This document shows positions 21,901 to 64,000 of a DNA stretch of 64,000 nucleotides, one piece after another. A program made the translations under genes and the position numbers. The notes under the pieces were generated by a model. The model made no database searches, was not told the origin of the DNA, and worked only from the letters and a program-made list of their open reading frames with translations. The DNA is from Crossaster papposus. Taxonomy: Eukaryota > Echinodermata > Asteroidea > Velatida > Solasteridae. The first letter of the stretch is position 1; every line of letters starts with the position of its first letter. The DNA lies in NCBI GenBank assembly GCA_037893245.1, contig JBAIAA010000094.1, positions 1,178,001-1,242,000 of the forward strand, given 5' to 3'.

Positions 21901-22009
21901 CTCAGATGTCGAGCTGGTGAGTATCTCTTCATTCTCGAACAACGTTGAGGTTCGCAGCTCCAATATAAGTCGAGAAAATTGTCATCATTGGCAGCCACCT
22001 TTTCTGATG

Positions 22010-38040: not shown

Positions 38041-39342
38041 CTAAGATATAAGTCAAGACAATTATCCTCATTCGCAGCCACCTTTTCTTATGTGTATGTT
38101 TGTACACGTGTATTGCCGCATTGGCCTATGCCGCCTGTGCCCTGACGCATGAGTCTCACAGTTTGGGTTCTTTCTATTGAGAAATTTAGCAAAATATTTT
38201 GGCTCCGATGTCGAGCTGGTGAGTGTCTCTTCATTCTCGAACAACGTTGAGGTTCGCAGCTCAAATATAAGTCGAGAAAATTATCCTCATTCGCAGCCAT
38301 GTTTTCTTATGTGTATCTATGTACACGAGTATTGCCGCATTGGCGTAGGTCGCCAGTGCCCTGACGCATGAGTCTCACAGTTTGGGTTCTTTTCATTGGG
38401 AAATTTGGCAATATTTTGGCTCAGATGTCGAGCTGGTGAGTATTTCTTCATTCTCGATCAACGTTGAGGTTCCCAGCTAAGATAAAAGTCGAGAAAATAA
38501 TCCTCATTCGCAGCCACCTTTTCTGATGTGTATGTTTGTACACGTGTATTGCCGCATTGGCCTATGCCGCCAGTGCCCTGACGCATGAGTCTCACAGTTT
38601 GGGTTCTTTCTATTGAAAAATTTGGCAATATTTTGGCTCCGATGTTGAGCTGGTAAGTGTCTCTTCATTCTCGAACAACGTTGAGGTTCGCAGCTAAGAT
38701 ATAAGTCAAGACAATTATCCTCATTCGCAGCCACCTTTTCTTATGTGTATGTTTGTACACGTGTATTGCCGCATTGGCCTATACCGCCTGTGCCCTGACG
38801 CATGAGTCTCACAGTTTGGGTTCTTTCTATTGAGAAATTTAGCAAAATATTTTGGCTCCGATGTCGAGCTGGTGAGTGTCTCTTCATTCTCGAACAACGT
38901 TGAGGTTCGCAGCTCAAATATAAGTCGAGAAAATTATCCTCATTCGCAGCCATGTTTTCTTATGTGTATCTATGTACACGAGTATTGCCGCATTGGCGTA
39001 GGTCGCCAGTGCCCTGACGCATGAGTCTCACAGTTTGGGTTCTTTTCATTGGGAAATTTGGCAATATTTTGGCTCAGATGTCGAGCTGGTGAGTATTTCT
39101 TCATTCTCGATCAACGTTGAGGTTCCCAGCTAAGATAAAAGTCGAGAAAATAATCCTCATTCGCAGCCACCTTTTCTGATGTGTATGTTTGTACACGTGT
39201 ATTGCCGCATTGGCCTATGCCGCCAGTGCCCTGACGCATGAGTCTCACAGTTTGGGTTCTTTCTATTGAAAAATTTGGCAATATTTTGGCTCCGATGTTG
39301 AGCTGGTAAGTGTCTCTTCATTCTCGAACAACGTTGAGGTTC
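38041..39342. repeat. Tandem duplication of a 653-bp, 3-monomer unit
   Basis: The rare variant AAGTCAAGACAATTATCC occurs at about 38049 and 38702, and the monomers that follow keep the same order with a 653-bp offset. The copies diverge at about 38689/39342, where one reads GCAGCTAAG and the other GCAGATCAAA. Confidence 0.75.
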
Positions 39343-42300
39343 GCAGATCAAATATAAGTCGAGAAAATTATCCTCATTCGCAGCCACCTTTTCTGATGTG
39401 TATGTTTGTACACTTGTATTGCCGCATAGGCCTATGCCGTCAGTGCCCTGACGCATGGGTCTCACGGTTTGGGTTTTTTCCAGTGGGAAATTTGGCAATA
39501 TTTTGGCTCAGATGTCGACCTGGTGAGTGTCTCTTCATTCTCGAACAACGTTGAGGTTCGCAGCTCAGATATAAGTCGAGAAAATTAACCTCTTTCCTAG
39601 CCATGTTTTCTTGTGTGTATCTATGTACACGTGTATTGCCGCATAGGCCTATGCCGTCAGTGCCATGACGCATGAGTCTCACAGTTTGGGTTCTTTCCAT
39701 TGAGAGATTTGGCAATATTTTGGCTCAGATGTCGAGCTGGTGAGTGTCTCTTCATTCTCGAACAACGTTGAGGTTCGCAGCTCCAATATAAGTCGAGCAA
39801 ATTGTCATCATTGGCAGCCACCTTTTCTTAGGTGTATCTATGTACACGTGTATTGGCGCATTGGCCTATGCCGCCAGTGCAATGACGCATGAGTCTCACA
39901 GTTTTGGGTTCTTTCCAGTGAGAAATTTGGCAATATTTTGGCTCAGATGTCGAGCTGGTGAGTGTCTCTTCATTCTCGAGCAACGTTGAGGTTCGCAGCT
40001 CAAATATAAGTCGAGAAAATTATCCTCATTCGCAGCCACCTTTTCTGATGTGTATGTTTGTACACGTGTATTGCCGCATAGGCCTATGCCGTCAGTGCCC
40101 TGACGCATGGGTCTCACGGTTTGGGTTTTTTTCCAGTGAGAAATTTGGCAATATTTTGGCTCCGATGTCGAGCTGGTGAGTGTCTCGTCATTCTCGAACA
40201 ACGTTGAGGTTCTCAGCTCAGATATAAGTCGAGAAAATTATCCTCATTCGCAGCCACCTTTTCTTATGTGTATGTTTGTACACGTGTATTGCCGCATAGG
40301 CCTATGCCGCCAGTGGCCTGACGCATGAGTCTCACGGTTTGGGTTTTTTCCAGTGAGAAATTTGGCAATATTTTGGCTCCGATGTCGAGCTGGTGAGTGT
40401 CTCGTCATTCTCGAACAACGTTGAGGTTCTCAGCTCAGATATAAGTCAAGAAAATTATCCTCATTCGCAGCCACATTTTCTTATGTGTATGTTTGTACGC
40501 GTGTATTGCCGCATAGGCCTATGCCGCCAGTGGCCTGACGCATGAGTCTCACGGTTTGGGTTTTTTCCAGTGAGAAATTTGGCAATATTTTGGCTCCGAT
40601 GTCGAGCTGGTGAGTGTCTCGTCATTCTCGAACAACGTTGAGGTTCTCAGCTCAGATATAAGTCAAGAAAATTATCCTCATTCGCAGCCACCTTTTCTGA
40701 TGTGTATGTTTGTACACGTGTATTGCCGCATTGGCCTATGCCGCCAGTGCCCTGACGCATGAGTCTCACAGTTTGGGTTCTTTCTATTGAAAAATTTGGC
40801 AATATTTTGGCTCCGATGTTGAGCTGGTAAGTGTCTCTTCATTCTCGAACAACGTTGAGGTTCGCAGATCAAATATAAGTCGAGAAAATTATCCTCATTC
40901 GCAGCCACCTTTTCTGATGTGTATGTTTGTACACTTGTATTGCCGCATAGGCCTATGCCGTCAGTGCCCTGACGCATGGGTCTCACGGTTTGGGTTTTTT
41001 CCAGTGGGAAATTTGGCAATATTTTGGCTCAGATGTCGACCTGGTGAGTGTCTCTTCATTCTCGAACAACGTTGAGGTTCGCAGCTCAGATATAAGTCGA
41101 GAAAATTAACCTCTTTCCTAGCCATGTTTTCTTGTGTGTATCTATGTACACGTGTATTGCCGCATAGGCCTATGCCGTCAGTGCCATGACGCATGAGTCT
41201 CACAGTTTGGGTTCTTTCCATTGAGAGATTTGGCAATATTTTGGCTCAGATGTCGAGCTGGTGAGTGTCTCTTCATTCTCGAACAACGTTGAGGTTCGCA
41301 GCTCCAATATAAGTCGAGCAAATTGTCATCATTGGCAGCCACCTTTTCTTAGGTGTATCTATGTACACGTGTATTGGCGCATTGGCCTATGCCGCCAGTG
41401 CAATGACGCATGAGTCTCACAGTTTTGGGTTCTTTCCAGTGAGAAATTTGGCAATATTTTGGCTCAGATGTCGAGCTGGTGAGTGTCTCTTCATTCTCGA
41501 GCAACGTTGAGGTTCGCAGCTCAAATATAAGTCGAGAAAATTATCCTCATTCGCAGCCACCTTTTCTGATGTGTATGTTTGTACACGTGTATTGCCGCAT
41601 AGGCCTATGCCGCCAGTGGCCTGACGCATGAGTCTCACGGTTTGGGTTTTTTCCAGTGAGAAATTTGGCAATATTTTGGCTCCGATGTTGAGCTGGTGAG
41701 TGTCTCGTCATTCTCGAACAACGTTGAGGTTCTCAGCTCAGATATAAGTCAAGAAAATTATCCTCATTCGCAGCCACATTTTCTTATGTGTATGTTTGTA
41801 CGCGTGTATTGCCGCATAGGCCTATGCCGCCAGTGGCCTGACGCATGAGTCTCACGGTTTGGGTTTTTTCCAGTGAGAAATTTGGCAATATTTTGGCTCC
41901 GATGTCGAGCTGGTGAGTGTCTCGTCATTCTCGAACAACGTTGAGGTTCTCAGCTCAGATATAAGTCAAGAAAATTATCCTCATTCGCAGCCACCTTTTC
42001 TGATGTGTATGTTTGTACACGTGTATTGCCGCATTGGCCTATGCCGCCAGTGCCCTGACGCATGAGTCTCACAGTTTGGGTTCTTTCTATTGAAAAATTT
42101 GGCAATATTTTGGCTCCGATGTTGAGCTGGTAAGTGTCTCTTCATTCTCGAACAACGTTGAGGTTCGCAGATCAAATATAAGTCGAGAAAATTATCCTCA
42201 TTCGCAGCCACCTTTTCTGATGTGTATGTTTGTACACTTGTATTGCCGCATAGGCCTATGCCGTCAGTGCCCTGACGCATGGGTCTCACGGTTTGGGTTT

Positions 42301-43116
42301 TTTCCAGTGGGAAATTTGGCAATATTTTGGCTCAGATGTCGACCTGGTGAGTGTCTCTTCATTCTCGAACAACGTTGAGGTTCGCAGCTCAGATATAAGT
42401 CGAGAAAATTAACCTCTTTCCTAGCCATGTTTTCTTGTGTGTATCTATGTACACGTGTATTGCCGCATAGGCCTATGCCGTCAGTGCCATGACGCATGAG
42501 TCTCACAGTTTGGGTTCTTTCCATTGAGAGATTTGGCAATATTTTGGCTCAGATGTCGAGCTGGTGAGTGTCTCTTCATTCTCGAACAACGTTGAGGTTC
42601 GCAGCTCCAATATAAGTCGAGCAAATTGTCATCATTGGCAGCCACCTTTTCTTAGGTGTATCTATGTACACGTGTATTGGCGCATTGGCCTATGCCGCCA
42701 GTGCAATGACGCATGAGTCTCACAGTTTTGGGTTCTTTCCAGTGAGAAATTTGGCAATATTTTGGCTCAGATGTCGAGCTGGTGAGTGTCTCTTCATTCT
42801 CGAGCAACGTTGAGGTTCGCAGCTCAAATATAAGTCGAGAAAATTATCCTCATTCGCAGCCACCTTTTCTGATGTGTATGTTTGTACACGTGTATTGCCG
42901 CATAGGCCTATGCCGTCAGTGCCCTGACGCATGGGTCTCACGGTTTGGGTTTTTTTCCAGTGAGAAATTTGGCAATATTTTGGCTCCGATGTCGAGCTGG
43001 TGAGTGTCTCGTCATTCTCGAACAACGTTGAGGTTCTCAGCTCAGATATAAGTCGAGAAAATTATCCTCATTCGCAGCCACCTTTTCTTATGTGTATGTT
43101 TGTACACGTGTATTGC
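39157..43116. repeat. Three higher-order units (1521 and 1303 bp) next to the island
   Basis: Equivalent monomers occur at 39157, 40678 and 41981, and at 39440, 40961 and 42264. The 1521-bp unit has 7 monomers and the 1303-bp unit has 6, one monomer having been lost. The segment 39958-40292 matches 42782-43116 with a constant offset of 2824 bp. This provides the uninterrupted counterpart of the sequence into which the island inserted. Confidence 0.8.
40201..40417. repeat. Representative satellite monomer with three dyads and a splice-like segment
   Basis: This copy is exactly 217 bp and shows the elements shared by most monomers. There are three perfect palindromes: CAACGTTG (40199-40206), TACACGTGTA with a CACGTG core (40279-40288), and GCATAGGCCTATGC (40294-40307). 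The last two are only 5 bp apart. Downstream, a pyrimidine run ending in CAG (40344-40353) is followed 39 nt later by CTG|GTGAGT (40390-40398), which imitates an acceptor and a strong donor. I counted 12 CpG dinucleotides. This monomer also contains the paralogous empty site of the island insertion, at 40292-40294. Confidence 0.9.
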
Positions 43117-43119
43117 GTG
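43114..43119 (+). repeat. Left copy of a 6-bp direct repeat at the island border
   Basis: TGCGTG spans the left junction: its first three bases belong to the satellite and the last three to the island. The matching copy is at 51922-51927. Six bases is short enough for chance, so this is only a candidate core site. Confidence 0.4.
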
Positions 43120-43167
43120 TACATGTCAATACCGCAAATGGAGGGCTTTAATGTAAGTACACACTCA

Positions 43168-43673: not shown

Positions 43674-44240
43674 CCGTCATCTGGGGTGACTTTGATAGTT
43701 TTTGGCACTTCTGATATCTTTTGAGTAGGATAAATGGGGTTTTCACCCTTGATTCTTTCAACTAATAACAATGTGCCTCTTGGCTATCAATAGACCAAAT
43801 CATTTCTTCATCAGATTGTGTTTTCATATTTTTTTTAAAACCACAACAAAATATCAAAGTCACCCCGTTGTCGGGGTGACATTGATAACCAATGAATAAA
43901 GCCTATGTTATCAAATTAACCCTCTTATTGGGGTGACTTTGATAATTTTAATTCGTTTTAAAAAAACACAAGCTACAAAACTATTCAAACAATACAAATA
44001 TTTGGGTTTTCTGATAACTTTAATGGTTTGATAGCCCCTCGACCCAGCCTTCCGTTTATAGACCCGTGGCATGATTGTTACGGTACATCAGAGCTCAATC
44101 AGTATCTGCGAAGACAGAAAAGACAAATACTATCATAAAAACACAACTACACAGAGTTTTGGACACTTTGTTGTTCAATTTTGACATTCGGGGTGATTTA
44201 TCAAAGTCACACTGAGTATCAAAGTCACCCCAGATGACGG
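43674..44240. mobile_element. 567-bp MITE-like element with 24-bp perfect terminal inverted repeats
   Basis: The first 24 bases (43674-43697, starting CCGTCATCTGGGG) are the exact reverse complement of the last 24 (44217-44240). The core GGGGTGACTTTGATA is repeated internally: inverted at 43852-43866, direct with one change at 43873-43887, direct at 43930-43944, and partly at 44190-44210. The 43852/43873 pair forms a hairpin. There is no coding capacity. TATGAC occurs on both sides (43664-43669 and 44243-44248), but not directly adjacent and in a TATGA-rich setting, so a target duplication is not proven. The superfamily is not recognised. Confidence 0.75.
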
Positions 44241-44961: not shown

Positions 44962-45088
44962 ATGAAACGAAGTAGTCGTCTTGATGGAACCTTGACAAAT
45001 CACCAGCATCATGAAGGGGAGAACGTAATCGCACTGTGGCCTCCAGATTCATCATGGTATCCTGCCGTAATAATCTCCTTCACCAAAG
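44962..45088 (+). CDS. Coding exon 1: N-terminus and first half of a Tudor-like domain
   Basis: The exon encodes 42 residues plus one base. After a basic, Ser/Thr-rich start it contains GENVIALWPPDSSWYPAVI, with the spacing of small hydrophobic and aromatic residues typical of Tudor/agenet-like folds, which often bind methylated histone tails or arginines. It ends CACCAAAG|GTAAGT, a strong donor, in phase 1. Upstream the frame stays open back to about 44917, where TGTAG and TCTAG could serve as acceptors, so a 5' non-coding exon is possible. Confidence 0.7.
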
Positions 45089-48000
45089 GTAAGTGCGGAG
45101 CCTCTAAAAGGACATATGACGAAAACAAATGGAATGCCCTCGTAATTTGTGGGTTCACGTTAACGTGAACCCACATTAGGGTTGTGGGTTCCGTAGGTAA
45201 GAAATGTAATCCATAATGTAGAATCCCATTTGTTACACATAAATTAAGACAGCTGTATACCCTCTTACATCCCCCCATGACATGTACCACATGTAAATAA
45301 ACAATGCCATTTTTCCTAAACTTGATTCCTCCCCCCCCCCCCCTTTCAGAACCAAAAATATATATGATCTGTAAACAACAAATACTTTTCAACATTCCAC
45401 TCCCAATTGCATGTAATCTCTTTAAAGTTTAATTAGTTGAATTTGTGGCTTTCTTATCAGGAAAGTACTGCGTCCGATACACTGATGGTGTGACACGCTG
45501 CCTATTTGAGCACCAGGTGAGAAAATTACCATAGAATGCATTAATTAAAAACAGACAGGTTAGGAAGAATACCAATGAAATGCGTAATTCTTCCAAATAG
45601 GCACTTGGGGAGACAAACTAGCGTAATTTTTTAGGTAATAAGGAGACAGTGGCACTTAGGGAGACATTTTAGTGTCTCCCTAAGTGCCTTAGAAGTCTTA
45701 GAAGTCATATAATGAATGCACATGACACAAATTCTCATTTGAATTACATATCTTTTTATGAAGAGGATAAATACCGGTATGTCGTCAGTTAAGTTGCACA
45801 TCAAGGGCGAATGTTGTTGCTTGTGATGGTGTTAAAATAGATAGTATATTTTATAGATAACACAAAGAAATTGTTATTTGTTTAAAATTAAATGTGATTT
45901 TGATTTGATTTCTATGCCAGGTGGCCCATCCGAGTTTCTTGAATCCGCACTTAAATGGTTCAGACAGTCTACAAAGCAGTTCCATTTGGGATGATGGCCC
46001 ACAGGCTGATTCTGGTACAGAACCTGCCGTTTGTACTGCCCCATATGAGGTAATTCACACACACTCAACTTGTTTTCAGAACCCAAATATTCACTCTGGG
46101 TGCCCAGAAGCCAGAAACAAATTTATAAATCAAGTGTTTTTTTGGCAAGCACCCCCCCCCCTTTCACCCCCCCCCCCCCCACCCCACCCCACACCCCACC
46201 CCTCCCACCCCTACTCCCAACTCCCTCTCCTTTAGAGGGTCAACTAGTCCGAGGCAATTAGGCATATGCGTCTACCCCGAAAGAAAATAACAGTGGTGTT
46301 TTGGTTTTTTTCCACTCGTTCTAAATCATAAACGTTTTCTGCATCCGGCAACATAGAAAGTAGTAAGATTTTGATTCATTAGTGAACTTGTTTTCTGAAC
46401 CCTATCAAATATTCACTGTGGGTGCCCAGAAGCCAGAAACAAATTTGTAAATAAAGTGTTTTTGGCAAGCACCATCCCCCCCCCCCCCCCCCCCCACACA
46501 CACCCACCCCTCCCCCACACACCCACCCCTCCCCTCGCCCTCCCACCCCTCCCCAAAGAAATTGTTATTTGTTTAAAATTAAATGTGATTTTGATTTGAT
46601 TTCTATGCCAGGTGGCCCATCCGAGTTTCTTGAATCCGCACTTGAATGGTTCAGACAGTCTACAAAGCAGTTCCATTTGGGATGATGGCCCACAGGCTGA
46701 TTCTGGTAGAGGACCTGCCGTTTGTACTGCTCCATATGAGGTAATTCACACACACTCAACTTGTTTTCAGAACCCAAATATTCACTCTGGGTGCCCAGAA
46801 GCCAGAAACAAATTTATAAATCAAGTGTTTTTTTGGCAAGCACCCCCCCCCCTTTCACCCCCCCCCCCCCCCCACCCCACCCCACACCCCACCCCTCCCA
46901 CCCCTACTCCCAACTCCCTCTCCTTTAGAGGGTCAACTAGTCCGAGGCAATTAGGCATATGCGTCTACCCCGAAAGAAAATAACAGTGGTGTTTTGGTTT
47001 TTTTCCACTCGTTCTAAATCATAAACGTTTTCTGCATCCGGCAACATAGAAAGTAGTAAGATTTTGATTCATTAGTGAACTTGTTTTCTGAACCCTATCA
47101 AATATTCACTGTGGGTGCCCAGAAGCCAGAAACAAATTTGTAAATAAAGTGTTTTTGGCAAGCACCATCCCCCCCCCCCCCCCCACACACACCCACCCCT
47201 CCCCCACACACCCACCCCTCCCCTCGCCCTCCCACCCCTCCCCAAAGAAATTGTTATTTGTTTAAAATTAAATGTGATTTTGATTTGATTTCTATGCCAG
47301 GTGGCCCATCCGAGTTTCTTGAATCCGCACTTGAATGGTTCAGACAGTCTACAAAGCAGTTCCATTTGGGATGATGGCCCACAGGCTGATTCTGGTAGAG
47401 GACCTGCCGTTTGTACTGCTCCATATGAGGTAATTCACACACACTCAACTTGTTTTCAGAACCCAAATATTCACTCTGGGTGCCCAGAAGCCAGAAACAA
47501 ATTTATAAATCAAGTGTTTTTTTTGCAAGCACCCCCCCCCCTTTCACCCCCCCCCCCCCCCACCCCACCCCACACCCCACCCCTCCCACCCCTACTCCCA
47601 ACTCCCTCTCCTTTAGAGGGTCAACTAGTCCGAGGCAATTAGGCATATGCGTCTACCCCGAAAGAAAATAACAGTGGTGTTTTGGTTTTTTTCCACTCGT
47701 TCTAAATCATAAACGTTTTCTGCATCCGGCAACATAGAAAGTAGTAAGATTTTGATTCATTAGTGAACTTGTTTTCTGAACCCTATCAAATATTCACTGT
47801 GGGTGCCCAGAAGCCAGAAACAAATTTGTAAATAAAGTGTTTTTGGCAAGCACCATCCCCCCCCCCCCCCCCCCCCCACACACACCCACCCCTCCCCCAC
47901 ACACCCACCCCTCCCCTCGCCCTCCCACCCCTCCCCAAAGAAATTGTTATTTGTTTAAAATTAAATGTGATTTTGATTTGATTTCTATGCCAGGTGGCCC

Positions 48001-51000
48001 ATCCGAGTTTCTTGAATCCGCACTTAAATGGTTCAGACAGTCTACAAAGCAGTTCCATTTGGGATGATGGCCCACAGGCTGATTCTGGTACAGAACCTGC
48101 CGTTTGTACTGCTCCATATGAGGTAATTCACACACACTCAACTTGTTTTCAGAACCCAAATATTCACTCTGGGTGCCCAGAAGCCAGAAACAAATTTATA
48201 AATCAATTGTTTTTTTTGCAAGCACCCCCCCCCCCTTTCACCCCCCCCCCCCCACCCCACCCCACACCCCACCCCTCCCACCCCTACTCCCAACTCCCTC
48301 TCCTTTAGAGGGTCAACTAGTCCGAGGCAATTAGGCATATGCGTCTACCCCGAAAGAAAATAACAGTGGTGTTTTGGTTTTTTTCCACTCGTTCTAAATC
48401 ATAAACGTTTTCTGCATCCGGCAACATAGAAAGTAGTAAGATTTTGATTCATTAGTGAACTTGTTTTCTGAACCCTATCAAATATTCACTGTGGGTGCCC
48501 AGAAGCCAGAAACAAATTTGTAAATAAAGTGTTTTTGGCAAGCACCATCCCCCCCCCCCCCCCCCCACACACACCCACCCCTCCCCCACACACCCACCCC
48601 TCCCCTCGCCCTCCCACCCCTCCCCAAAGAAATTGTTATTTGTTTAAAATTAAATGTGATTTTGATTTGATTTCTATGCCAGGTGGCCCATCCGAGTTTC
48701 TTGAATCCGCACTTAAATGGTTCAGACAGTCTACAAAGCAGTTCCATTTGGGATGATGGCCCACAGGCTGATTCTGGTAGAGGACCTGCCGTTTGTACTG
48801 CTCCATATGAAGCCTCAAGTGCCGAGTCACAGAGATCATCAACCGAGGCTACTGAGACCGGTCACATAACGGTCATGGAGACCAGCAATGAAAGTGGGCA
48901 CAGGAAATGGGACAAGAAACACTTTTGCTTTTTCTGTGAAGTACCTCAATCTAAGTTGCCCCGTCATCTCCAGTCATGTCACAAAGAAGAGAGCGAAGTT
49001 GTAGAGATTGCGTCTGAGACCAACCCAAGTGCCCGTAAGATACTTCTGTGGAAAATCCGCAATGTTGGTAATCATAGGCACAATTGCCAAGTCCTTCGGA
49101 AAGGCCGGGGTGCACTTATTGTAGGATATAGGCCTAATCATAAGGTATCTCCACATGCATACGGACCGTGCATATATTGTTATGGCTATTATGTGCGAAG
49201 TGATCTCTGGCGTCACCAGTGCCCACTGAAACCTGCACTCCCTGCACACTCGCATGGTAGCACTACCACAACTCCTCTGCGTAGATGTGTTGCTCACAAG
49301 AGTGATTTGTTAAAGCCTCCACCTGTCGGTGTGTCTTTCCAGTTGAACCAGGTTCTTATTCCGATGAAGAGAGATGAGGTGACTCTGCTGGCCAAGAATG
49401 ACACTTTGATTGTGGAAGTAGCCAAGCGGGAATACGCGAAACTCGGGCACGATGTAGATCAACATGGCTACATCCGAAACAAGATACGGGAATTGGGTCG
49501 TCTTGTCATACAACTCCGCAAGAATACACACCAACCAAATGCATCACTTGAATTATTTGTCCACCCCCACTACCTGAATGATATCATCAAGGCTATTCAC
49601 GGTATTGCTGGCTTTAATGAAGACAAGCAGTTGTATGATGTTCCGTCTCTAGCTTTAAAGATTGGACATTCCATCAAGAAGTGTGCACTCATACTTAAAG
49701 GAAATGCTCTAGAGTCTGGCCAAAAGCAAAAAGCCCAACACGCTGAAGAATTTCTGCAGTTGTGCGAACTGACCTGGCGAGACCGTGTATCCACCCATGC
49801 ACACAGAACACTGTACCAAGGAAAGCGCAACCAACCTCAAATTCTGCCGACAAATGCTGATGTTGTGAAAATGTCGGCGTTCCTCCATGAAGCTGGCAAC
49901 AGAGAAGTGGAACTTGTCCAGGATGCTCGGGGCGAACAAATTGGACCAGCTTGGAAGAGATTGAATGAAGTCGCACTGTGCCACCTTATTATGTTCAACC
50001 GCAGAAGGCAAGGGGAGGTATCAAAAATGAAACTAGAAGACTTTCAGAAGCACACAACAGCTAGTGTGAACGGGGAATGCCTGCTGACTGATCTTGAACG
50101 GCATCTGTGCAAGATGTTCAGAGTTGTCGAAATAGTTGGCAAGAGGGGTCGAACTGTTCCTGTGCTTCTCAGCAATGAGGTGGTGGCGTGGTTGAGTGCT
50201 CTGATTGCGAAGAGAAATGAAGCTGGAGTCGCCCACGACAACACCTACTTGTTTGCACGATGTTCTTATGGAGGTACAGGTCATATAAGAGGATGTGACT
50301 GTATAAGATTGTACGCAGACATGGCGGGCCTTGACAATGCTGCCAGCATCCGGTCTACAAAACTTCGTAAGCACGTGGCAACCGCATCGCAAATTCTTGC
50401 CTTGAAGGAACATCCACTTGAAACACTTGCAAACTTCATGGGTCATGATTTGCGTGTCCATCGTGAATACTACCAGTTGCCAGATACTGTGCAGAGGGTC
50501 ACCAAACTTTCTAGACTTTTTCTCAGCTTGGAGAGGGGAAACTTGCCTTCCCAGCAGGGCAAATCCCTGGATGAACTGCATGTCACTGGTGGTAAGGACA
50601 CAGTTGTTTTAAATTATTTACTCAACAGCAAAAGAAAGACATTAATTATTGCTTTTGTTGAAAAATATTTGATCAGTAATTACTATTCACTAATACATCT
50701 TCAACAGCGAAAGAAATGCAAGAAATAACATTTTGTTATCAGTTCACAATATATGATAACAAATGGTATACGTGTTTGTGTGCATTTCTTTTGCTATTGC
50801 TCCTGCATTACAGAACAAGAAAGAGAAATAGAGAAAAATTAGAAAGAAACAGACCACAGAAATTTGACAAGAGTTGAGTCCACTTTTCTGAATTTACATG
50901 CAGGACAACAACCAACTGTCGGGTATGTGTGCATTAATCTAACAAAAACTGCTCTTTGTGACTTGCAGAAGGCTTCACTAGTGACGAGGAAAGCGATAAC

Positions 51001-51691
51001 AGCAGTGACAATTCCTGTGATGTGCCCAGTGAAAACAGTAAGTTTAGGCTTTTATGTGTCTGTATTTTAACCAGTTCGCGCCGGATGACGTATATAAACG
51101 CAAAAATTTTCCAAAATTCAAAACGAATGACGCATAAACCTGCCAAGTTCAAGTTCGGAAATGTATGTCAGCAGCGCGCAAGGCCGGAAATGCGTGGGTG
51201 TGCTTCCCGGCACTATCAGCCTGAACCCGCTTCAGATCGAGTTTCGTAAAAAATAATCCCGCCCGTGGGCTTGGCGATGTTAAAATAATCCCGGCGCAAA
51301 CTGGTTAAGTCGGGCTGTCTTTAAAAAAACAATTGTCTGTCTGTCCATTTGTTTGTTCATCTGGCTATCGGGCTGTCTGAATTAAAAGTGCCTAAATATC
51401 TGTGTTTGATATCGACTTGTTTCCTATTTGACATTAGGTACTCGACAGGCTCCTATCAGTGTTCCATCTGGAAGTCTGGCATCTCTGAACAACTCGAGAC
51501 GAGTGAAACGTCGTCCCTGGACTGCCGAGGAGAAGGGAGACGTTACGAAGGGTTTGCAGAAATTCTTTCTGCTGAAGAAGCTTCCTGGCAAACGAGACAT
51601 CGAAACATCCTGTCTTGTGGCACTGCAGACACGAAGCTGGAGGAACATCAAAGACTTTTGTCGGAACAAAATGAAGCTTCATCAAAGCTAA
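44962..51691 (+). CDS. Multidomain tyrosine-recombinase gene (Tudor-like, amplified linker, zinc fingers, recombinase, SANT-like)
   Basis: My exon model is 44962-45088, 45461-45516, 45921-46049, 46612-46740, 47301-47429, 47994-48122, 48683-50591, 50969-51037 and 51438-51691. Every junction has GT and AG, and reading phases agree throughout. This gives 976 residues, or 804 without the four cassette exons. The order is Tudor-like module, 43-residue repeats, two Cys/His zinc-finger-like motifs, tyrosine recombinase core, acidic linker and Myb/SANT-like C-terminus. Such enzymes cut and rejoin DNA through a tyrosine, which would move the island. The Tudor and SANT modules suggest chromatin or DNA contacts. 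ATG 44962 is the first in-frame ATG and has A at -3. No AATAAA was seen between the stop codon and the satellite, so the 3' end is unclear. The protein could instead be a domesticated host factor. No frameshift or internal stop is visible. Confidence 0.75.
45148..45175. repeat. Perfect 28-bp palindrome in intron 1
   Basis: GTGGGTTCACGTT (45149-45161) is followed at once by its exact reverse complement (45162-45174). One more T/A pair extends the dyad to 28 bp with no spacer. It lies 60 bp after the exon 1 donor. It could form a cruciform or bind a dimeric factor. No partner copy was seen in the window. Confidence 0.85.
45331..45346. repeat. Poly-C tract in intron 1
   Basis: A run of about 15 cytosines lies between TGATTC and TTTCAG. 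It is a smaller relative of the long C-rich tracts in the cassette introns. TTTCAG at its end looks like an acceptor, but no plausible exon follows. Confidence 0.7.
45461..45516 (+). CDS. Coding exon 2: second half of the Tudor-like domain
   Basis: TTCTTATCAG precedes the exon and GTGAGA follows it. The 56 nt complete the split glycine and encode GKYCVRYTDGVTRCLFEHQ, the second half of a Tudor-like barrel, where the aromatic and the Asp-Gly turn are characteristic. The reading joins exon 1 without a stop and ends in phase 0, matching the phase of the cassette exons and of the large exon. Confidence 0.7.
45600..45688. mobile_element. ~90-bp inverted-repeat element in intron 2 (micro-MITE candidate)
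   Basis: GGCACTTGGGGAGACA (45600-45615) opens the segment, and its near-perfect reverse complement TGTCTCCCTAAGTGCC closes it (45673-45688). A second forward copy, GGCACTTAGGGAGACA (45651-45666), pairs perfectly with the closing copy over 16 bp across a 6-bp loop. The terminal inverted pair suggests a tiny non-autonomous element, and the internal pair a strong hairpin. No clear target duplication was seen. Confidence 0.5.
45921..46049 (+). CDS. Cassette exon, copy 1 (43 residues, phase 0-0)
   Basis: TTTCTATGCCAG precedes this exon and GAG|GTAATT follows. The 129 nt are open and encode a Ser/Asn/Asp-rich segment starting VAHPSFLNPHLNGSDS and ending TAPYE. The exact multiple of three and the phase 0 ends mean that inclusion or skipping keeps the frame. 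This copy reads GTEP where copies 2, 3 and 5 read GRGP. No known domain is recognised; a flexible linker is likely. Confidence 0.55.
46150..46220. repeat. C-rich low-complexity tract, repeated in every cassette intron
   Basis: Runs of 9-17 cytosines separated by single A or T bases fill 46150-46220 and 46487-46556. They recur in the later units at about 46842, 47168, 47530, 47857, 48225 and 48548. The complementary strand is G-run rich, so i-motif or G-quadruplex formation is plausible. Such tracts are prone to slippage and to assembly error. Confidence 0.8.
46612..46740 (+). CDS. Cassette exon, copy 2
   Basis: Same acceptor (TGCCAG) and donor (GAG|GTAATT) as copy 1, and the same 43-residue frame. 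It carries the GRGP variant and a synonymous TTG leucine codon shared with copy 3. Confidence 0.55.
47301..47429 (+). CDS. Cassette exon, copy 3
   Basis: This exon matches copy 2, including the GRGP and TTG variants, with intact splice sites on both sides. Confidence 0.55.
47994..48122 (+). CDS. Cassette exon, copy 4
   Basis: Intact acceptor and donor. It shares the GTEP and TTA variants with copy 1. The alternating variant pattern (1 and 4 alike, 2 and 3 alike, 5 mixed) suggests more than one round of unequal exchange. Confidence 0.55.
48683..50591 (+). CDS. Large coding exon: zinc-finger-like motifs and tyrosine recombinase core
   Basis: The exon starts after TGCCAG with the fifth copy of the 43-residue module, then runs on for 636 codons plus one base to the donor ACTGGTG|GTAAGG. 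Numbering from its first codon, a Cys/His motif spans residues 82-100 (C82, C85, H95, H100) and a second spans 163-180 (C163, C166, H178, C180). The C-terminal half (about 390-610) reads as a tyrosine recombinase. FNRRRQGEV supplies the first arginine (R442), GKRGRTVPV the beta-hairpin lysine (K487), STKLRKH the second arginine (R562), NFMGH the histidine (H588) and HREYY the nucleophile (Y597 or Y596). The usual His of the HxxR motif is Thr559. The middle region (210-390) is helical-looking and may be the core-binding domain. The frame would read on to a stop at 50728 if the intron were retained. Confidence 0.88.
50592..50968 (+). other. Intron between the recombinase exon and the acidic exon
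   Basis: It begins GTAAGG and ends CTTGCAG, is AT-rich and contains a purine-rich stretch (about 50817-50865). The recombinase frame stays open for 45 codons into it, but composition changes abruptly at the donor and the extension looks non-coding. Confidence 0.65.
50969..51037 (+). CDS. Coding exon: acidic linker
   Basis: This 69-nt exon lies between CTTGCAG and GTAAGT. In the phase set by the large exon it encodes EGFTSDEESDNSSDNSCDVP and a few further residues, an acidic, serine-rich linker, and ends in phase 1. The alternative phases give no sensible product, and the phase match on both sides supports the exon. Confidence 0.7.
51071..51304. mobile_element. piggyBac-like MITE (234 bp) in the last intron
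   Basis: The ends CCAGTTCGCGCCGG (51071-51084) and CCGGCGCAAACTGG (51291-51304) are inverted repeats matching at 13 of 14 positions. TTAA lies directly outside both ends (51067-51070 and 51305-51308), the target duplication typical of piggyBac elements. There is no coding capacity. AAATAATCCCG occurs twice inside. The element sits wholly within an intron and does not disturb the splice sites. Confidence 0.8.
51438..51691 (+). CDS. Terminal coding exon: Myb/SANT-like domain
   Basis: ACATTAG precedes the exon, and phase 1 joins the acidic exon to give a serine. After a short Ser/Pro linker it encodes RRPWTAEEKGDVTKGLQKFF, then LPGKRDIETSC and RSWRNIKDFCRNKM, ending at TAA. The pattern of WTAEE, spaced hydrophobics and a second tryptophan followed by a basic helix matches Myb/SANT-like DNA-binding folds. 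From memory, a similar tail follows the recombinase in many fish and invertebrate proteins of this family. It would provide DNA or chromatin binding. Confidence 0.75.
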
Positions 51692-51926
51692 GCAGGGTGT
51701 TTCGTCAGTTCACATACATGTACGGATGCGTCAGAGTACTTGACTATTTAGAATTTGCAATCGCAATGATGACTTTAGAATGCACATCAATATGAAACCA
51801 ATGGACAACCAGCAATTTAGTGTAGTGTCCTCACTTTGATAGGTGTAATTCACACACACTCAAGTGTCCTCCATTGGATAGAATGACAAGTATGCCCTCA
51901 GTGTGGTAGTGTCTACATGTATGCGT
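51692..51926. other. 3' untranslated or terminal region of the island
   Basis: No gene was seen. It contains the 19-mer GTAATTCACACACACTCAA (51845-51863), identical to the start of each cassette intron. It also has three GTCCTC/GCCCTCA-type motifs that are inverted relative to the left border, and TACATGT close to the right junction. No AATAAA polyadenylation signal was found. Confidence 0.6.
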
Positions 51927-51927
51927 G
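51922..51927 (+). repeat. Right copy of a 6-bp direct repeat at the island border
   Basis: TGCGTG recurs here, its last G being the first base of the resumed satellite palindrome. It lies inside ATGC-GT-GCAT (51921-51930), a small dyad across the junction. Confidence 0.4.
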
Positions 51928-52589
51928 CATAGGCCTATGCCGCCAGTGGCCTGACGCATGAGTCTCACGGTTTGGGTTTTTTCCAGTGAGAAATTTGGCA
52001 ATATTTTGGCTCCGATGTCGAGCTGGTGAGTGTCTCGTCATTCTCGAACAACGTTGAGGTTCTCAGCTCAGATATAAGTCAAGAAAATTATCCTCATTCG
52101 CAGCCACCTTTTCTTATGTGTATGTTTGTACGCGTGTATTGCCGCATAGGCCTATGCCGCCAGTGGCCTGACGCATGAGTCTCACGGTTTGGGTTTTTTC
52201 CAGTGAGAAATTTGGCAATATTTTGGCTCCGATGTCGAGCTGGTGAGTGTCTCGTCATTCTCGAACAACGTTGAGGTTCTCAGCTCAGATATAAGTCAAG
52301 AAAATTATCCTCATTCGCAGCCACCTTTTCTGATGTGTATGTTTGTACACGTGTATTGCCGCATAGGCCTATGCCGCCAGTGGCCTGCCGCATGAGTCTC
52401 ACAGTTTGGGTTCTTTCTATTGAGACATTTGGTAATATTTTGGCTCAGATGTTGAGCTGGTGAGTGTCTCTTCATTCTCAAACAACGTTGAGGTTCGCAG
52501 CTCAAATATAAGTCGAGAAAATTATCCTCATTCGCAGCCACCTTTTCTGATGTGTATGTTTGTACATGTGTATTGCCGCATTGGCCTAT

Positions 52590-52605
52590 GCCGCCAGAAA
52601 TTTGG
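52590..52605. repeat. Deletion junction inside a satellite monomer
   Basis: GCCGCCAG runs straight into AAATTTGGC. The distance between successive GGTGAG landmarks (52459 to 52632) is 173 bp instead of 217, so 44 bp are missing. A 2-bp AG microhomology lies at the join. Confidence 0.8.
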
Positions 52606-54138
52606 CAATATTTTGGCTCCGATGTCGAGCTGGTGAGTGTCTCGTCATTCTCGAACAACGTTGAGGTTCTCAGCTCAGATATAAGTCAAGAAAATTATCC
52701 TCATTCGCAGCCACCTTTTCTTATGTGTATGTTTGTACACGTGTATTGCCGCATAGGCCTATGCCGCCAGTGGCCTGCCGCATGAGTCTCACAGTTTGGG
52801 TTCTTTCTATTGAGAAATTTGGCAATATTTTGGCTCAGATGTTGAGCTGGTGAGTGTCTCTTCATTCTCAAACAACGTTGAGGTTCGCAGCTCAAATATA
52901 AGTCGAGAAAATTATCCTCATTCGCAGCCACCTTTTCTGATGTGTATGTTTGTACACTTGTATTGCCGCATAGGCCTATGCCGTCAGTGCCCTGACGCAT
53001 GGGTCTCACGGTTTGGGGTTTTTCCAGTGAGAAATTTGGCAATATTTTGGCTCAGATGTCGACCTGGTGAGTGTCTCTTCATTCTCGAACAACGTTGAGG
53101 TTTGCAGCTCAGATATAAGTCGAGAAAATTAACCTCATTCCTAGCCATGTTTTCTTGTGTGTATCTATGTACACGTGCATTGCCGCATAGGCCTATGCCG
53201 TCAGTGCCCTGACGCATGAGTCTCACAGTTTGGGTTCTTTCCATTGAGAGATTTGGCAATATTTTGGCTCAGATGTCGAGCTGGTGAGTGTCTCTTCATT
53301 CTCGAACAACGTTGAGGTTCGCAGCTCCAATATAAGTCGAGAAAATTGTCATCATTGGCAGCCACCTTTTCTTAGGTGTATCTAAGTACACGTGTATTGG
53401 CGCATTGGCCTATGCCGCCAGTGCCCTGACGCATGAGTCTCACAGTTTTGGGTTTTTTCCATTGAGAAATTTGGCAATATTTTGGCTCAGATGTCGAGTT
53501 GGTGAGTGTCTCTTCATTCTCGAGCAACGTTGAGGTTTGCAGCTCAAATATAAGTCGAGAAAATTATCCTCATTCGCAGCCACCTTTTCTGATGTGTATG
53601 TTTGTACACGTGTATTGCCGCATAGGCCTATGCCGTCAGTGCCCTGACGCATGGGTCTCACGGTTTTGTTTTTTTTCCATTGAGAAATTTGGCAATATTT
53701 TGGCTCCGATGTCGAGCTGGTGAGTGTCTCGTCATTCTCGAACAACGTTGAGGTTCTCAGCTCAGATATAAGTCAAGAAAATTATCCTCATTCGCAGCCA
53801 CCTTTTCTTATGTGTATGTTTGTACACGTGTATTGCCGCATAGGCCTATGCCGCCAGTGGCCTGACGCATGAGTCTCACGGTTTGGGTTTTTTCCAGTGA
53901 GTAATTTGGCAATATTTTGGCTCCGATGTCGAGCTGGTGAGTGTCTCGTCATTCTCGAACAACGTTGAGGTTCTCAGCTCAGATATAAGTCAAGAAAATT
54001 ATCCTCATTCGCAGCCACCTTTTCTTATGTGTATGTCTGTACACGTGTATTGCCGCATAGGCCTATGCCGCCAGTGGCCTGCCGCATGAGTCTCACAGTT
54101 TGGGTTCTTTCTATTGAGAAATTTGGCAATATTTTGGC

Positions 54139-56742
54139 TCAGATGTTGAGCTGGGGAGTGTCTCTTCATTCTCAAACAACGTTGAGGTTCGCAGCTGAAA
54201 TATAAGTCGAGAAAATTATCCTCATTCGCAGCCACCTTTTCTGATGAGTATGTTTGTACATGTGTATTGCCGCATTGGCCTATGCCGCCAGTTCCCTGAC
54301 GCATGAGTCTCACGGTTTGGGTTTTTTCTAGTGAGAAATTTGGCAATATTTTGGCTCAGATGTCGAGCTGGTGAGTGTCTCTTCATTCTCGAACAACGTT
54401 GAGGTTCGCAGCCCAGATATAAGTCGAGAAAATTATCCTCATTCGCAGCCATGTTTCCTTTTGTGTTTCTATGTACACGTGTATTGCCGCATTGGCCTAT
54501 GCCGCCAGTTCCCTGACGCATGAGTCTCACAGTTTGGGTTCTTTCTATTGAGAAATTTGGCAATATTTTGGCTCCGATGTCGAGCTGGTGAGTGTCTCTT
54601 CATTATCGAACAACGTTGAGGTTCGCAGCGCAAATATAAGTCGAGAAAATTATCCTCATTCGCAGCCATGTTTTCTTATGTGTATCTATGTACACGAGTA
54701 TTGCCGCATTGGCCTAGGTCGCCAGTGCCCTGACGCATGAGTCTCACAGTTTGGGTTCTTTTCATTGGGAAATTTGGCAATATTTTGGCTCAGATGTCGA
54801 GCTGGTGAGTATTTCTTCATTCTCGAACAACGTTGAGGTTCCCAGCTAAGATAAAAGTCGAGAAAATAATCCTCATTCGCAGCCACCTTTTCTGATGTGT
54901 ATGTTTGTACACGTGTATTGCCGCATTGGCCTATGCCGCCAGTGCCCTGACGCATGAGTCTCACAGTTTGGGTTCTTTCTCTTGAAAAATTTGGCAATAT
55001 TTTGGCTCCGATGTTGAGCTGGTGAGTGTCTCTTCATTCTCGAACAACGTTGAGGTTCGCAGATCAAATATAAGTCGAGAAAATTATCCTCATTCGCAGC
55101 CACCTTTTCTGATGTGTATGTTTGTACACTTGTATTGCCGCATAGGCCTATGCCGTCAGTGCCCTGACGCATGGGTCTCACGGTTTGGGGTTTTTCCAGT
55201 GAGAAATTTGGCAATATTTTGGCTCAGATGTCGACCTGGTGAGTGTCTCTTCATTCTCGAACAACGTTGAGGTTCGCAGCTCAGATATAAGTCGAGAAAA
55301 TTAACCTCATTCCTAGCCATGTTTTCTTGTGTGTATCTATGTACACGTGTATTGCCGCATAGGCCTATGCCGTCAGTGCCCTGACGCATGAGTCTCACAG
55401 TTTGGGTTCTTTCCATTGAGAGATTTGGCAATATTTTGGCTCAGATGTTGAGCTGGTGAGTGTCTCTTCATTCTCAAACAACGTTGAGGTTCGCAGCTCA
55501 AATATAAGTCGAGAAAATTATCCTCATTCGCAGCCACCTTTTCTGATGAGTATGTTTGTACATGTGTATTGCCGCATTGGCCTATGCCGCCAGTTCCCTG
55601 ACGCATGAGTCTCACGGTTTGGGTTTTTTCTAGTGAGAAATTTGGCAATATTTTGGCTCAGATGTCGAGCTGGTGAGTGTCTCTTCATTCTCGAACAACG
55701 TTGAGGTTCGCAGCCCAGATATAAGTCGAGAAAATTATCCTCATTCGCAGCCATGTTTCCTTTTGTGTTTCTATGTACACGTGTATTGCCGCATTGGCCT
55801 ATGCCGCCAGTTCCCTGACGCATGAGTCTCACAGTTTGGGTTCTTTCTATTGAGAAATTTGGCAATATTTTGGCTCCGATGTCGAGCTGGTGAGTGTCTC
55901 TTCATTATCGAACAACGTTGAGGTTCGCAGCGCAAATATAAGTCGAGAAAATTATCCTCATTCGCAGCCATGTTTTCTTATGTGTATCTATGTACACGAG
56001 TATTGCCGCATTGGCCTAGGTCGCCAGTGCCCTGACGCATGAGTCTCACAGTTTGGGTTCTTTTCATTGGGAAATTTGGCAATATTTTGGCTCAGATGTC
56101 GAGCTGGTGAGTATTTCTTCATTCTCGAACAACGTTGAGGTTCCCAGCTAAGATAAAAGTCGAGAAAATAATCCTCATTCGCAGCCACCTTTTCTGATGT
56201 GTATGTTTGTACACGTGTATTGCCGCATTGGCCTATGCCGCCAGTGCCCTGACGCATGAGTCTCACAGTTTGGGTTCTTTCTCTTGAAAAATTTGGCAAT
56301 ATTTTGGCTCCGATGTTGAGCTGGTGAGTGTCTCTTCATTCTCGAACAACGTTGAGGTTCGCAGATCAAATATAAGTCGAGAAAATTATCCTCATTCGCA
56401 GCCACCTTTTCTGATGTGTATGTTTGTACACTTGTATTGCCGCATAGGCCTATGCCGTCAGTGCCCTGACGCATGGGTCTCACGGTTTGGGGTTTTTCCA
56501 GTGAGAAATTTGGCAATATTTTGGCTCAGATGTCGACCTGGTGAGTGTCTCTTCATTCTCGAACAACGTTGAGGTTCGCAGCTCAGATATAAGTCGAGAA
56601 AATTAACCTCATTCCTAGCCATGTTTTCTTGTGTGTATCTATGTACACGTGTATTGCCGCATAGGCCTATGCCGTCAGTGCCCTGACGCATGAGTCTCAC
56701 AGTTTGGGTTCTTTCCATTGAGAGATTTGGCAATATTTTGGC
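54139..56742. repeat. Tandem duplication of a 1302-bp, 6-monomer unit
   Basis: Positions 54222, 54469, 54686 and 55156 have equivalents at 55524, 55771, 55988 and 56458, each exactly 1302 bp (6 x 217) away. Rare shared variants include CATGTTTCCTTTTGTGTTTC and TTCTTTCTCTTGAAAAATT. Copies end at about 55440 and 56742, where TGTTGAGC becomes TGTCGAGC. Confidence 0.8.
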
Positions 56743-59700
56743 TCAGATGTCGAGCTGGTGAGTGTCTCTTCATTCTCGAACAACGTTGAGGTTCGCAGCT
56801 CCAATATAAGTCGAGAAAATTGTCATCATTGGCAGCCACCTTTTCTTAGGTGTATCTATGTACACGTGTATTGGCGCATTGGCCTATGCCGCCAGTGCCC
56901 TGACGCATGAGTCTCACAGTTTTGGGTTTTTTCCATTGAGAAATTTGGCAATATTTTGGCTCAGATGTCGAGCTGGTGAGTGTCTCTTCATTCTCGAGCA
57001 ACGTTGAGGTTCGCAGCTCAAATATAAGTCGAGAAAATTATCCTCATTCGCAGCCACCTTTTCTGATGTGTATGTTTGTACACGTGTATTGCCGAATAGG
57101 CCTATGCCGTCAGTGCCCTGACGCATGGGTCTCACGGTTTTGGTTTTTTTCCAGTGAGAAATTTGGCAATATTTTGGCTCCGATGTCGAGCTGGTGAGTG
57201 TCTCGTCATTCTCGAACAACGTTGAGGTTCTCAGCTCAGATATAAGTCGAGAAAATTATCCTCATTCGCAGCCACCTTTTCTTATGTGTATGTTTGTACA
57301 CGTGTATTGCCGCATAGGCCTATGCCGCCAGTGGCCTGACGCATGAGTCTCACGGTTTGGGTTTTTTCCAGTGAGTAATTTGGCAATATTTTGGCTCCGA
57401 TGTCGAGTTGGTGAGTGTCTCGTCATTCTCGAACAACGTTGAGGTTCTCAGCTCAGATATAAGTCAAGAAAATTATCCTCATTCGCGGCCACCTTTTCTT
57501 ATGTGTATGTTTGTACACGTGTATTGCCGCATAGGCCTATGCCGCCAGTGGCCTGCCGCATGAGTCTCACAGTTTGGGTTCTTTCTATTGAGAAATTTGG
57601 CAATATTTTGGCTCAGATGTTGAGCTGGTGAGTGTCTCTTCATTCTCAAACAACGTTGAGGTTCGCAGCTCAAATATAAGTCGAGAAAATTATCCTCATT
57701 CGCAGCCACCTTTTCTGATATCTATGTTTGTACATGTGTATTGTCGCATTGGCCTATGCCGCCAGTTCCCTGACGCATGAGTCTCACGGTTTGGTTTTTT
57801 TCTAGTGAGAAATTTGGCAATATTTTGGCTCAGATGTCGAGCTGGTGAGGGTTCCTTCATTCTCGAACAAAGTTGAGGTTCGCAGCCCAGATATAAGTCG
57901 AGAAAATTATCCTCATTCGCAGCCACCTTTTCTGATGTGTATGTTTGTACACTTGTATTGCCGCATAGGCCTATGCCGTCAGTGCCCTGACGCATGGGTC
58001 TCACGGTTTGGGGTTTTTCCAGTGAGAAATTTGGCAATATTTTGGCTCAGATGTCGACCTGGTGAGTGTCTCTTCATTCTCGAACAACGTTGAGGTTCGC
58101 AGCTCAGATATAAGTCGAGAAAATTAACCTCATTCCTAGCCATGTTTTCTTGTGTGTATCTATGTACACGTGTATTGCCGCATAGGCCTATGCCGTCAGT
58201 GCCCTGACGCATGAGTCTCACAGTTTGGGTTCTTTCCATTGAGAGATTTGGCAATATTTTGGCTCAGATGTCGAGCTGGTGAGTGTCTCTTCATTCTCGA
58301 ACAACGTTGAGGTTCGCAGCTCCAATATAAGTCGAGAAAATTGTCATCATTGGCAGCCACCTTTTCTTAGGTGTATCTATGTACACGTGTATTGGCGCAT
58401 TGGCCTATGCCGCCAGTGCCCTGACGCATGAGTCTCACAGTTTTGGGTTTTTTCCATTGAGAAATTTGGCAATATTTTGGCTCAGATGTCGAGCTGGTGA
58501 GTGTCTCTTCATTCTCGAGCAACGTTGAGGTTCGCAGCTCAAATATAAGTCGAGAAAATTATCCTCATTCGCAGCCACCTTTTCTGATGTGTATGTTTGT
58601 ACACGTGTATTGCCGAATAGGCCTATGCCGTCAGTGCCCTGACGCATGGGTCTCACGGTTTTGGTTTTTTTCCAGTGAGAAATTTGGCAATATTTTGGCT
58701 CCGATGTCGAGCTGGTGAGTGTCTCGTCATTCTCGAACAACGTTGAGGTTCTCAGCTCAGATATAAGTCGAGAAAATTATCCTCATTCGCAGCCACCTTT
58801 TCTTATGTGTATGTTTGTACACGTGTATTGCCGCATAGGCCTATGCCGCCAGTGGCCTGACGCATGAGTCTCACGGTTTGGGTTTTTTCCAGTGAGTAAT
58901 TTGGCAATATTTTGGCTCCGATGTCGAGTTGGTGAGTGTCTCGTCATTCTCGAACAACGTTGAGGTTTTCAGCTCAGATATAAGTCAAGAAAATTATCCT
59001 CATTCGCGGCCACCTTTTCTTATGTGTATGTTTTTTTATACACGTGTATTGCCGCATAGGCCTATGCCGCCAGTGGCCTGCCGCATGAGTCTCACAGTTT
59101 GGGTTCTTTCTATTGAGAAATTTGGCAATATTTTGGCTCAGATGTTGAGCTGGTGAGTGTCTCTTCATTCTCAAACAACGTTGAGGTTCGCAGCTCAAAT
59201 ATAAGTCGAGAAAATTATCCTCATTCGCAGCCACCTTTTCTGATATCTATGTTTGTACATGTGTATTGTCGCATTGGCCTATGCCGCCAGTTCCCTGACG
59301 CATGAGTCTCACGGTTTGGTTTTTTTCTAGTGAGAAATTTGGCAATATTTTGGCTCAGATGTCGAGCTGGTGAGGGTTCCTTCATTCTCGAACAAAGTTG
59401 AGGTTCGCAGCCCAGATATAAGTCGAGAAAATTATCCTCATTCGCAGCCATGTTTCCTTGTGTGTTTCTATGTACACGTGTATTGCCGCATTGGCCTATG
59501 CCGCCAGTTCCCTGACGCATGAGTCTCACAGTTTGGGTTTTTTCTATTGAGAAATTTGGCAATATTTTGGCTCAGATGTCGAGCTGGTGAGTGTCTCTTC
59601 ATTCTCGAACAACGTTGAGGTTCGCAGCTAAGATATAAGTCGAGAAAATTATCCTCATTCGCAGCCACCTTTTCTTATGTGTATGTTTGTACACGTGTAT

Positions 59701-63560: not shown

Positions 63561-63632
63561 ATCCTCATTCGCAGCCACCTTTTCTTATGTGTATGTTTGT
63601 AAAAGTGTATTGCCGCATAGGCCTATGCCGCC

Positions 63633-63654
63633 AGTGGCGCATGAGTGGCGCATG
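63633..63654. repeat. 11-bp tandem duplication in a satellite monomer
   Basis: AGTGGCGCATG occurs twice in direct succession, where other monomers read AGTGGCCTGACGCATG. The same monomer has lost its CACGTG core (GTAAAAGTG at about 63600). Confidence 0.8.
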
Positions 63655-64000
63655 AGTCTCACGGTTTGGGTTTTTTCTAGTGAGAAATTTGGCAATATTT
63701 TGGCTCAGATGTCGAGCTGGTGAGTGTCTCTTCATTCTCGAACAAAGTTGGGGTTCGCAGCCCAGATATAAGTCGAGAAAATTATCCTCATTCGCAGCCA
63801 TGTTTCCTTGTGTGTTTCTATGTACACGTGTATTGCCGCATTGGCCTATGCCGCCAGTTCCCTGACGCATGAGTCTCACAGTTTGGGTTCTTTCTATTGA
63901 GAAATTTGGCAATATTTTAGCTCAGATGTCGAGCTGGTGAGTGTCTCTTCATTCTCGAACAACGTTGAGGTTCGCAGCTAAGATATAAGTCGAGAACATT

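Follow-up and report, generated by a model that had tools for sequence, protein, structure and literature searches.

Tn916 and Tn1549 integrate through 6-bp coupling sequences that need not match the target and are swapped between element and site, and their target choice is relaxed. Choice of chromatin by transposons is known mainly for retroelements, for example those with chromodomain-bearing integrases, and SETMAR, one primate gene, joins a SET domain to a mariner transposase. Cryptons use a tyrosine recombinase as transposon enzyme, have a proposed circular intermediate and occur in animal hosts; within the available part of their published description, animal Cryptons are reported with no C-terminal domain and no terminal repeats found (PMC3212892). 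Here we describe a roughly 8.8-kb element of the sea star Crossaster papposus, found in a stretch of 64,000 nucleotides (assembly GCA_037893245.1, contig JBAIAA010000094.1, forward-strand positions 1,178,001 to 1,242,000) that we call the window and whose own numbering is used below. The element is a recently active, young, many-copied DNA transposon, and its one spliced gene is predicted to encode a tyrosine recombinase preceded by a Tudor module.

The window is one 217-bp satellite array that a single block interrupts (Tandem Repeats Finder, TRF). The block splits one satellite monomer and leaves the register preserved, the flanking anchors lying 9026 bp apart against a period of 217 bp. Comparison with other copies set the limits of the element at 43114-51927, with the hexamer TGCGTG counted at both ends:

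1..43113, + strand: left-flank 217-bp satellite array (TRF; 81% matches between copies)
43114..43119, + strand: left-junction 6-bp spacer TGCGTG of the window copy (copy comparison)
43120..43126, + strand: left terminal arm TACATGT (copy comparison)
51915..51921, + strand: right terminal arm ACATGTA (copy comparison)
51922..51927, + strand: right-junction 6-bp spacer TGCGTG (copy comparison; the identical hexamer in 54 of 61 complete right ends)
51928..64000, + strand: right-flank 217-bp satellite array, in register with the left flank

Across the 1.02-Gb genome, 65 scored matches (the best 65 of 1696 candidates, the window copy among them) were 99-100% identical over 685 amino acids, full length and without stops; eight copies, including that of the window, differed from one another at 0-2 positions per 2055 nucleotides. 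The exact 22-mer at the left end occurred 353 times, its reversed control not once. A first-pass annotation, made from the letters of the window alone, had implied a mobile element, and these copies, with their exact termini at differing flanks, bear it out in kind.

Exact ends could be read from the copies: inverted arms of 7 bp (ACATGTA/TACATGT) flank a spacer of 6 bp. A complete right end was present in 61 of 64 right flanks (L046, L048 and L059 were dropped; L004 stops at a contig end and lies outside the 64), with different DNA straight after the spacer. The right arm was ACATGTA, replaced by ACATGTG in three of these 61 ends, and the spacer was TGCGTG in 54, TGTGTG in 4, TACATG in 2 and TGCGGG in 1. 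Both junctions could be read in 22 copies, and in 16 of them TGCGTG stood at the right junction while the left one carried a different hexamer. Seven of the 22 lay in the satellite, and in six of these seven the left hexamer was the satellite's own TTGCCG. TGCGTG itself was absent from the + strand of the satellite in the window. Joined, the two ends read ACATGTA-TGCGTG-TACATGT, and at one locus (L052) a genomic right end runs directly into the left end of another copy, head to tail in the assembly, giving exactly the predicted circle junction. Over 19 distinct sites, the right arm of the target agreed with TACATGT at 4.00 of 7 positions versus 1.84 expected by draws (0 of 5000 draws), and its left arm agreed with ACATGTA at 2.79 versus 1.85 (p 0.0004). 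Targets thus resemble the arms of the element, but the spacer need not match. Controls for chance inverted arms at the joined ends (broad, p 0.013; strict, 7e-5) were both replaced by the copy comparison. The right ends of L038, L057, L058, L063 and L071 share a flank starting GTTTGTTTTTGATTGAAATAG after differing short GT-rich stretches; this flank may be another repeated target or a duplicated locus.

Conservation within the gene was read from a family of 145 proteins gathered by two homologue searches (the best 120 of 234 matches, and 61 matches), or 146 rows with the window protein. The gene itself has GT-AG introns with matching phases and runs for 977 codons before its stop, with no internal stop, as follows:

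44962..45088, + strand: exon 1, first half of the Tudor, cage residues W26 and Y33 (splice sites, profile match)
45461..45516, + strand: exon 2, second half of the Tudor, cage residues Y49 and D51 (splice sites, profile match)
45921..46049, + strand: linker exon copy 1, 129 nt, phase 0-0 (repeat and splice sites)
46612..46740, + strand: linker exon copy 2, 129 nt, phase 0-0 (repeat and splice sites)
47301..47429, + strand: linker exon copy 3, 129 nt, phase 0-0 (repeat and splice sites)
47994..48122, + strand: linker exon copy 4, 129 nt, phase 0-0 (repeat and splice sites)
48683..50591, + strand: large exon with the fifth linker copy, two zinc fingers and the recombinase (splice sites, model)
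48926..48982, + strand: zinc finger 1, C-x2-C-x9-H-x4-H (every ligand in 82 of 82 rows with letters)
49169..49222, + strand: zinc finger 2, C-x2-C-x11-H-x-C (every ligand in 82 of 82 rows with letters)
49388..50527, + strand: tyrosine recombinase, predicted core-binding and catalytic domains, model residues 236-615 (structure model)
50000-50002 (R), 50141-50143 (K), 50366-50368 (R), 50444-50446 (H) and 50471-50473 (Y), + strand: catalytic residues (alignment)
50969..51037, + strand: exon 5, acidic linker (splice sites)
51438..51691, + strand: last exon, conserved C-terminal domain, Myb/SANT-like by motif only, ending in TAA (splice sites, family alignment)

Phage_integrase was the only Pfam match of the large exon. 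The recombinase model contained a core-binding plus catalytic fold, with XerH as best fold match and the Tn1549 integrase structures 6en2 and 6emz among the structural matches listed, and the catalytic residues were conserved in nearly all rows with letters (R 82/82, K 79/82, R 81/82, H 83/83, Y 81/81). By alignment and model, the gene encodes a tyrosine recombinase. The C-terminal tail is conserved in 31 of the 146 rows and forms three helices in the predicted structure of a limpet relative (P0006, from Patella caerulea). A Pfam search of 17 tails returned no SANT or Myb family, and against the PDB the tail reached c-Myb at E 1.4 only. The first-pass annotation had called this tail SANT-like; the conserved domain stands, while its SANT identity is weaker than claimed, a resemblance by motif only.

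The spliced N-terminus, searched as a single sequence, matched several Pfam Tudor families, all below their cut-offs (gathering scores), and PHF20L1 in the PDB at E 9e-5. A profile built from the window protein, P0006 and P0140 (Patella vulgata) matched PHF20L1 at 2.3e-6, SMN at 6.6e-6, PHF20 (3qii) at 7.3e-5 and LBR at 2.4e-4, with non-Tudor chains starting at 2e-3; a homologue search with the Tudor part alone gave 13 candidates, none at E <=10. The top PDB match of the profile was 21ED, the second Tudor domain (Tudor2) of PHF20L1, which, in the available part of the source, prefers peptides of histone H4 dimethylated at lysine 20 (H4K20me2) and has a pocket of W97, Y103, F120 and D122 (PMC13285377). 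In sequence alignment W26, Y33, Y49 and D51 of the window protein fall on these four residues, and all three Tudors found retain W, Y, Y and D as the residues of the methyl-lysine pocket. The module is probably a histone-mark reader of the H4K20me2 type. It keeps the W, Y, aromatic and D of its best solved match but is a single Tudor on a recombinase, whereas PHF20L1 is a chromatin regulator with a tandem pair. The same order of modules is found in P0006, an annotated protein with a Tudor, then zinc fingers, recombinase and tail; in P0140 the Tudor follows C2H2 fingers and precedes a recombinase that is cut short. The first-pass annotation had proposed one gene carrying a Tudor-like reader on a tyrosine recombinase, to be checked by a profile search (HHpred) for the Tudor fold and a search for the same architecture in related genomes. 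The proposal has held: the splices and phases fit over the whole frame, the family profile finds PHF20L1 in the PDB, and the limpet protein repeats the order.

Taken together, we consider it likely that the locus holds a young, spliced Tudor-recombinase transposon that integrates via a circle across a mismatched spacer; its Tudor may hold the complex on methylated nucleosomes. The recombinase would excise a circle by joining the element ends; the arm-spacer-arm site of the circle would pair with a degenerate target; and strands would be exchanged across the mismatched 6-bp spacer in the manner of Tn916/Tn1549 integrases. The two zinc fingers and the C-terminal tail might help to bind the element ends, and the Tudor, with its pocket of the H4K20me2 type, might hold the complex on methylated nucleosomes. 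A satellite TTGCCG on the left paired with the element's TGCGTG on the right is the pattern of coupling sequences and for this reason suggests a circular intermediate. Judged by analogy with Tn916/Tn1549, the junctions have the anatomy left when strands are exchanged across an unmatched 6-bp spacer during integration: those elements share the unmatched exchange (16 of 22 pairs here, and six of seven satellite pairs with TTGCCG on the left) and the relaxed target choice. The present element differs in its animal host, spliced gene and chromatin modules; no conjugation genes were seen, none having been looked for.

Its enzyme, proposed circle and animal host recall Cryptons (PMC3212892), as do the 6-bp repeat at both ends of the window copy and the lack of a reverse transcriptase among the element open reading frames (ORFs) scanned, which were eight further ORFs, including both others of at least 150 amino acids and, in part, the shorter frames. 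Cryptons have terminal direct repeats of 4-6 bp; here TGCGTG stands at both ends in four of the 22 pairs, and the left hexamer differs in 16. Unlike animal Cryptons, the element also has a C-terminal domain (in 31 of 146 rows), inverted arms, a spacer that differs between junctions in most pairs read, zinc fingers and a Tudor. It differs from DIRS/Ngaro elements in that no reverse transcriptase gene was found in the ORFs scanned. The same eight ORFs matched no transposon or virus family, one frame of 71 amino acids giving a below-cut-off CART match (0.0011); an Rfam scan gave no match and an NCBIfam scan nothing useful. Viral contigs scanned for the recombinase gave 54 pattern matches with no confirmed relative, and the circle-junction pattern occurred in none of them.

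The named members of the family come from what we take, from the species names, to be echinoderms, molluscs, a hemichordate and a fish; the closest named relative among the matches listed belongs to Acanthaster planci (77%, covering 61% of the query). A SET domain lies near the N-terminus of 13 of the 145 proteins, and in the three tested (P0024, P0118 and P0127) its closest solved relative was KMT5A (SET8), an H4K20 methyltransferase, at E 5e-17, 1e-18 and 3e-20. The window gene is itself without SET and has its Tudor at the N-terminal end, where these members carry theirs. In a tree of 144 of the 146 rows (P0140 is not in it), the window protein, P0006 and an Asterias member fell in one 16-row clade (Shimodaira-Hasegawa-like approximate likelihood-ratio test, SH-aLRT, 100); no SET was found in that clade, the SET rows lying elsewhere. 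SET was present in 13 and Tudor in two of the 144 tree rows, counts from which absence of either domain cannot be read since many rows are single-exon fragments. P0109 adds a third type of N-terminal module: its residues 47-137 match the OTU cysteine-protease domain (E 5e-8).

On these domain matches, one tyrosine recombinase family probably carries an H4K20-type writer or reader. More tentatively, and on balance doubtfully, the family may have taken up two sides of one histone mark, with a KMT5A-like writer in some members and an H4K20me2-type Tudor reader in this branch; the sites where a circular intermediate integrates would then be selected or marked through H4K20 methylation that the elements write or read, which would make them a eukaryotic equivalent of Tn916 with chromatin targeting built in. 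The SET members recall SETMAR in joining SET to a DNA-transposon enzyme, but here the enzyme is a tyrosine recombinase and the family is dispersed among invertebrates; from KMT5A itself they differ in the fusion of SET to a recombinase. We found no paper pairing a tyrosine recombinase with SET8 or KMT5A, and a literature search on Cryptons with SET, Tudor, SANT, histone methyltransferase, satellite or echinoderm, with Repbase and subscription journals outside its scope, returned no such element among the matches listed. The finding is larger than the first-pass annotation stated, being a young transposon with readable ends whose family also carries a KMT5A-like SET. It offers a DNA transposon family with a probable reader or probable writer for the same histone residue and many near-identical copies, in which the crossover site and spacer exchange can be read from an assembly. 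Whether H4K20 methylation plays a part in transposon targeting, and whether an animal element integrates through a mismatched spacer as Tn916 does, can thereby be tested directly, and the recombinase is a candidate DNA-insertion enzyme with relaxed target choice.

Several observations weigh against the mechanism that we favor. Nine right ends share the flank of one segment (segment X, below) and further flanks recur, so that independent events number fewer than 61, and the 65 copies are the best matches, so that older copies go unseen. Besides the four junction pairs with TGCGTG on both sides, among them the window copy, two of the 22 carry TGCGTG at the left junction and a variant hexamer at the right. 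At its left junction the window copy has TGCGTG with one T more, which repair of a mismatched spacer might explain. A target origin of the left hexamer was observed in satellite copies only and is extrapolated elsewhere. The first histidine of the HxxR motif is threonine in 80 of 82 rows of the sequence alignment, the other catalytic residues being near invariant. Structure prediction, a further check named in the first-pass annotation, returned the recombinase fold, but the P0006 model held no confident Tudor (predicted local distance difference test, pLDDT, <40; thin alignment). On nucleosomes, the tandem Tudors of PHF20L1 bind DNA and lose their methyl selectivity, according to the part of the source available (PMC13285377), which leaves a DNA-binding role for the element's Tudor equally open. 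Finally, 16 of 61 right ends lay in this satellite, 15 of them at the same monomer position, versus three of 20 random points on element-bearing contigs (Fisher p 0.24).

These last points bear on the strongest rival, to which we give slightly less than even weight: that the recombinase chooses its targets by DNA sequence only, the Tudor having some other task such as nonspecific affinity for DNA or nucleosomes, element transcription or evasion of silencing. This rival shares the transposon and differs in the targeting step. The arm-like targets, the DNA binding of the PHF20L1 Tudors and the position of most insertions (45 of 61) outside the satellite favor it, whereas the methyl-lysine pocket retained in three Tudors and the KMT5A-type SET near the N-terminus of other members speak for chromatin. 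The satellite 18-mer occurred 53,638 times (control 0), or about 15 Mb at the density of the window and 1.5% of the genome, against which 16 of 61 would be a strong excess; the density of the 18-mer varies among arrays, however, the 65 copies are those that best match a copy lying in satellite, and enrichment over contig-matched points was not established. The first-pass annotation had suggested targeting to a chromatin state such as this satellite; what integration was seen to track is a degenerate arm-like DNA site, and chromatin targeting is a hypothesis within the mechanism that we favor.

A second rival, which we regard as unlikely, is that the 8.8-kb element is a short form and that the complete one, an integrating and replicating circle, also carries segment X:

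L089, G000:C130:4508100-4513500: segment X, roughly 5.2 kb lying between two copies in tandem; its minus strand has frames of 260 and 250 amino acids (weak matches to a replication initiator, REP_ORF2-G2P, and a Parvo_NS1-type, superfamily 3-like helicase)

Nine of the 61 right ends run into the same start of X, and the one X that was read begins TGCGTG-TACATGT, ends GGGTGCGTG before the TACATGTC of the next copy, and has pieces 81-93% identical to the linker repeat unit. Against this, that junction is free of X in 52 of the 61 complete right ends, the Pfam matches (REP_ORF2-G2P 0.013, Parvo_NS1 0.005) are both below cut-offs, and the segment was read only once.

It is very improbable that exons 1 and 2 are part of a different gene or stand open by chance, as the below-cut-off Pfam scores of the window protein's own Tudor might suggest. 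The splice phases fit, and the annotated limpet protein has Tudor, recombinase and tail in one chain. Among 23 left stretches fetched, exon 1 was identical at all 127 nucleotides and followed by its GT donor in all 20 that cover it whole, window copy included (L011 stops after 114 identical bases and two stop before exon 1); exon 2 was identical at 56 of 56 positions in 17 stretches and at 55 of 56 in two, the remaining four ending short of it. Near-identical across copies, the Tudor exons travel with the element. Domestication as a host gene located by chance in satellite, for which the intact frame, introns and architecture common to other animals could be cited, is scarcely credible beside at least 65 near-identical copies, 353 left ends and exact termini at unrelated flanks, and was dropped.

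Within the element, the linker exon is tandemly repeated every 689-693 bp, its fifth copy opening the large exon, which points to a recent tandem duplication of intron plus 129-nt exon (45863-48924). The 19-nt sequence GTAATTCACACACACTCAA follows each of the four duplicated copies and recurs in the 3' region at 51845-51863. Exact repeats of at least 10 amino acids were present in 33 of 84 family N-termini of at least 100 amino acids, the window protein included, and in none after shuffling; that of P0140 falls within its C2H2 fingers. Two inserts nested within the element resemble miniature inverted-repeat transposable elements (MITEs):

43674..44240, no strand: inverted-repeat-bounded, MITE-like insert upstream of the gene (inverted-repeat pair)
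51067..51308, no strand: inverted-repeat-bounded, MITE-like insert in the last intron (inverted-repeat pair)

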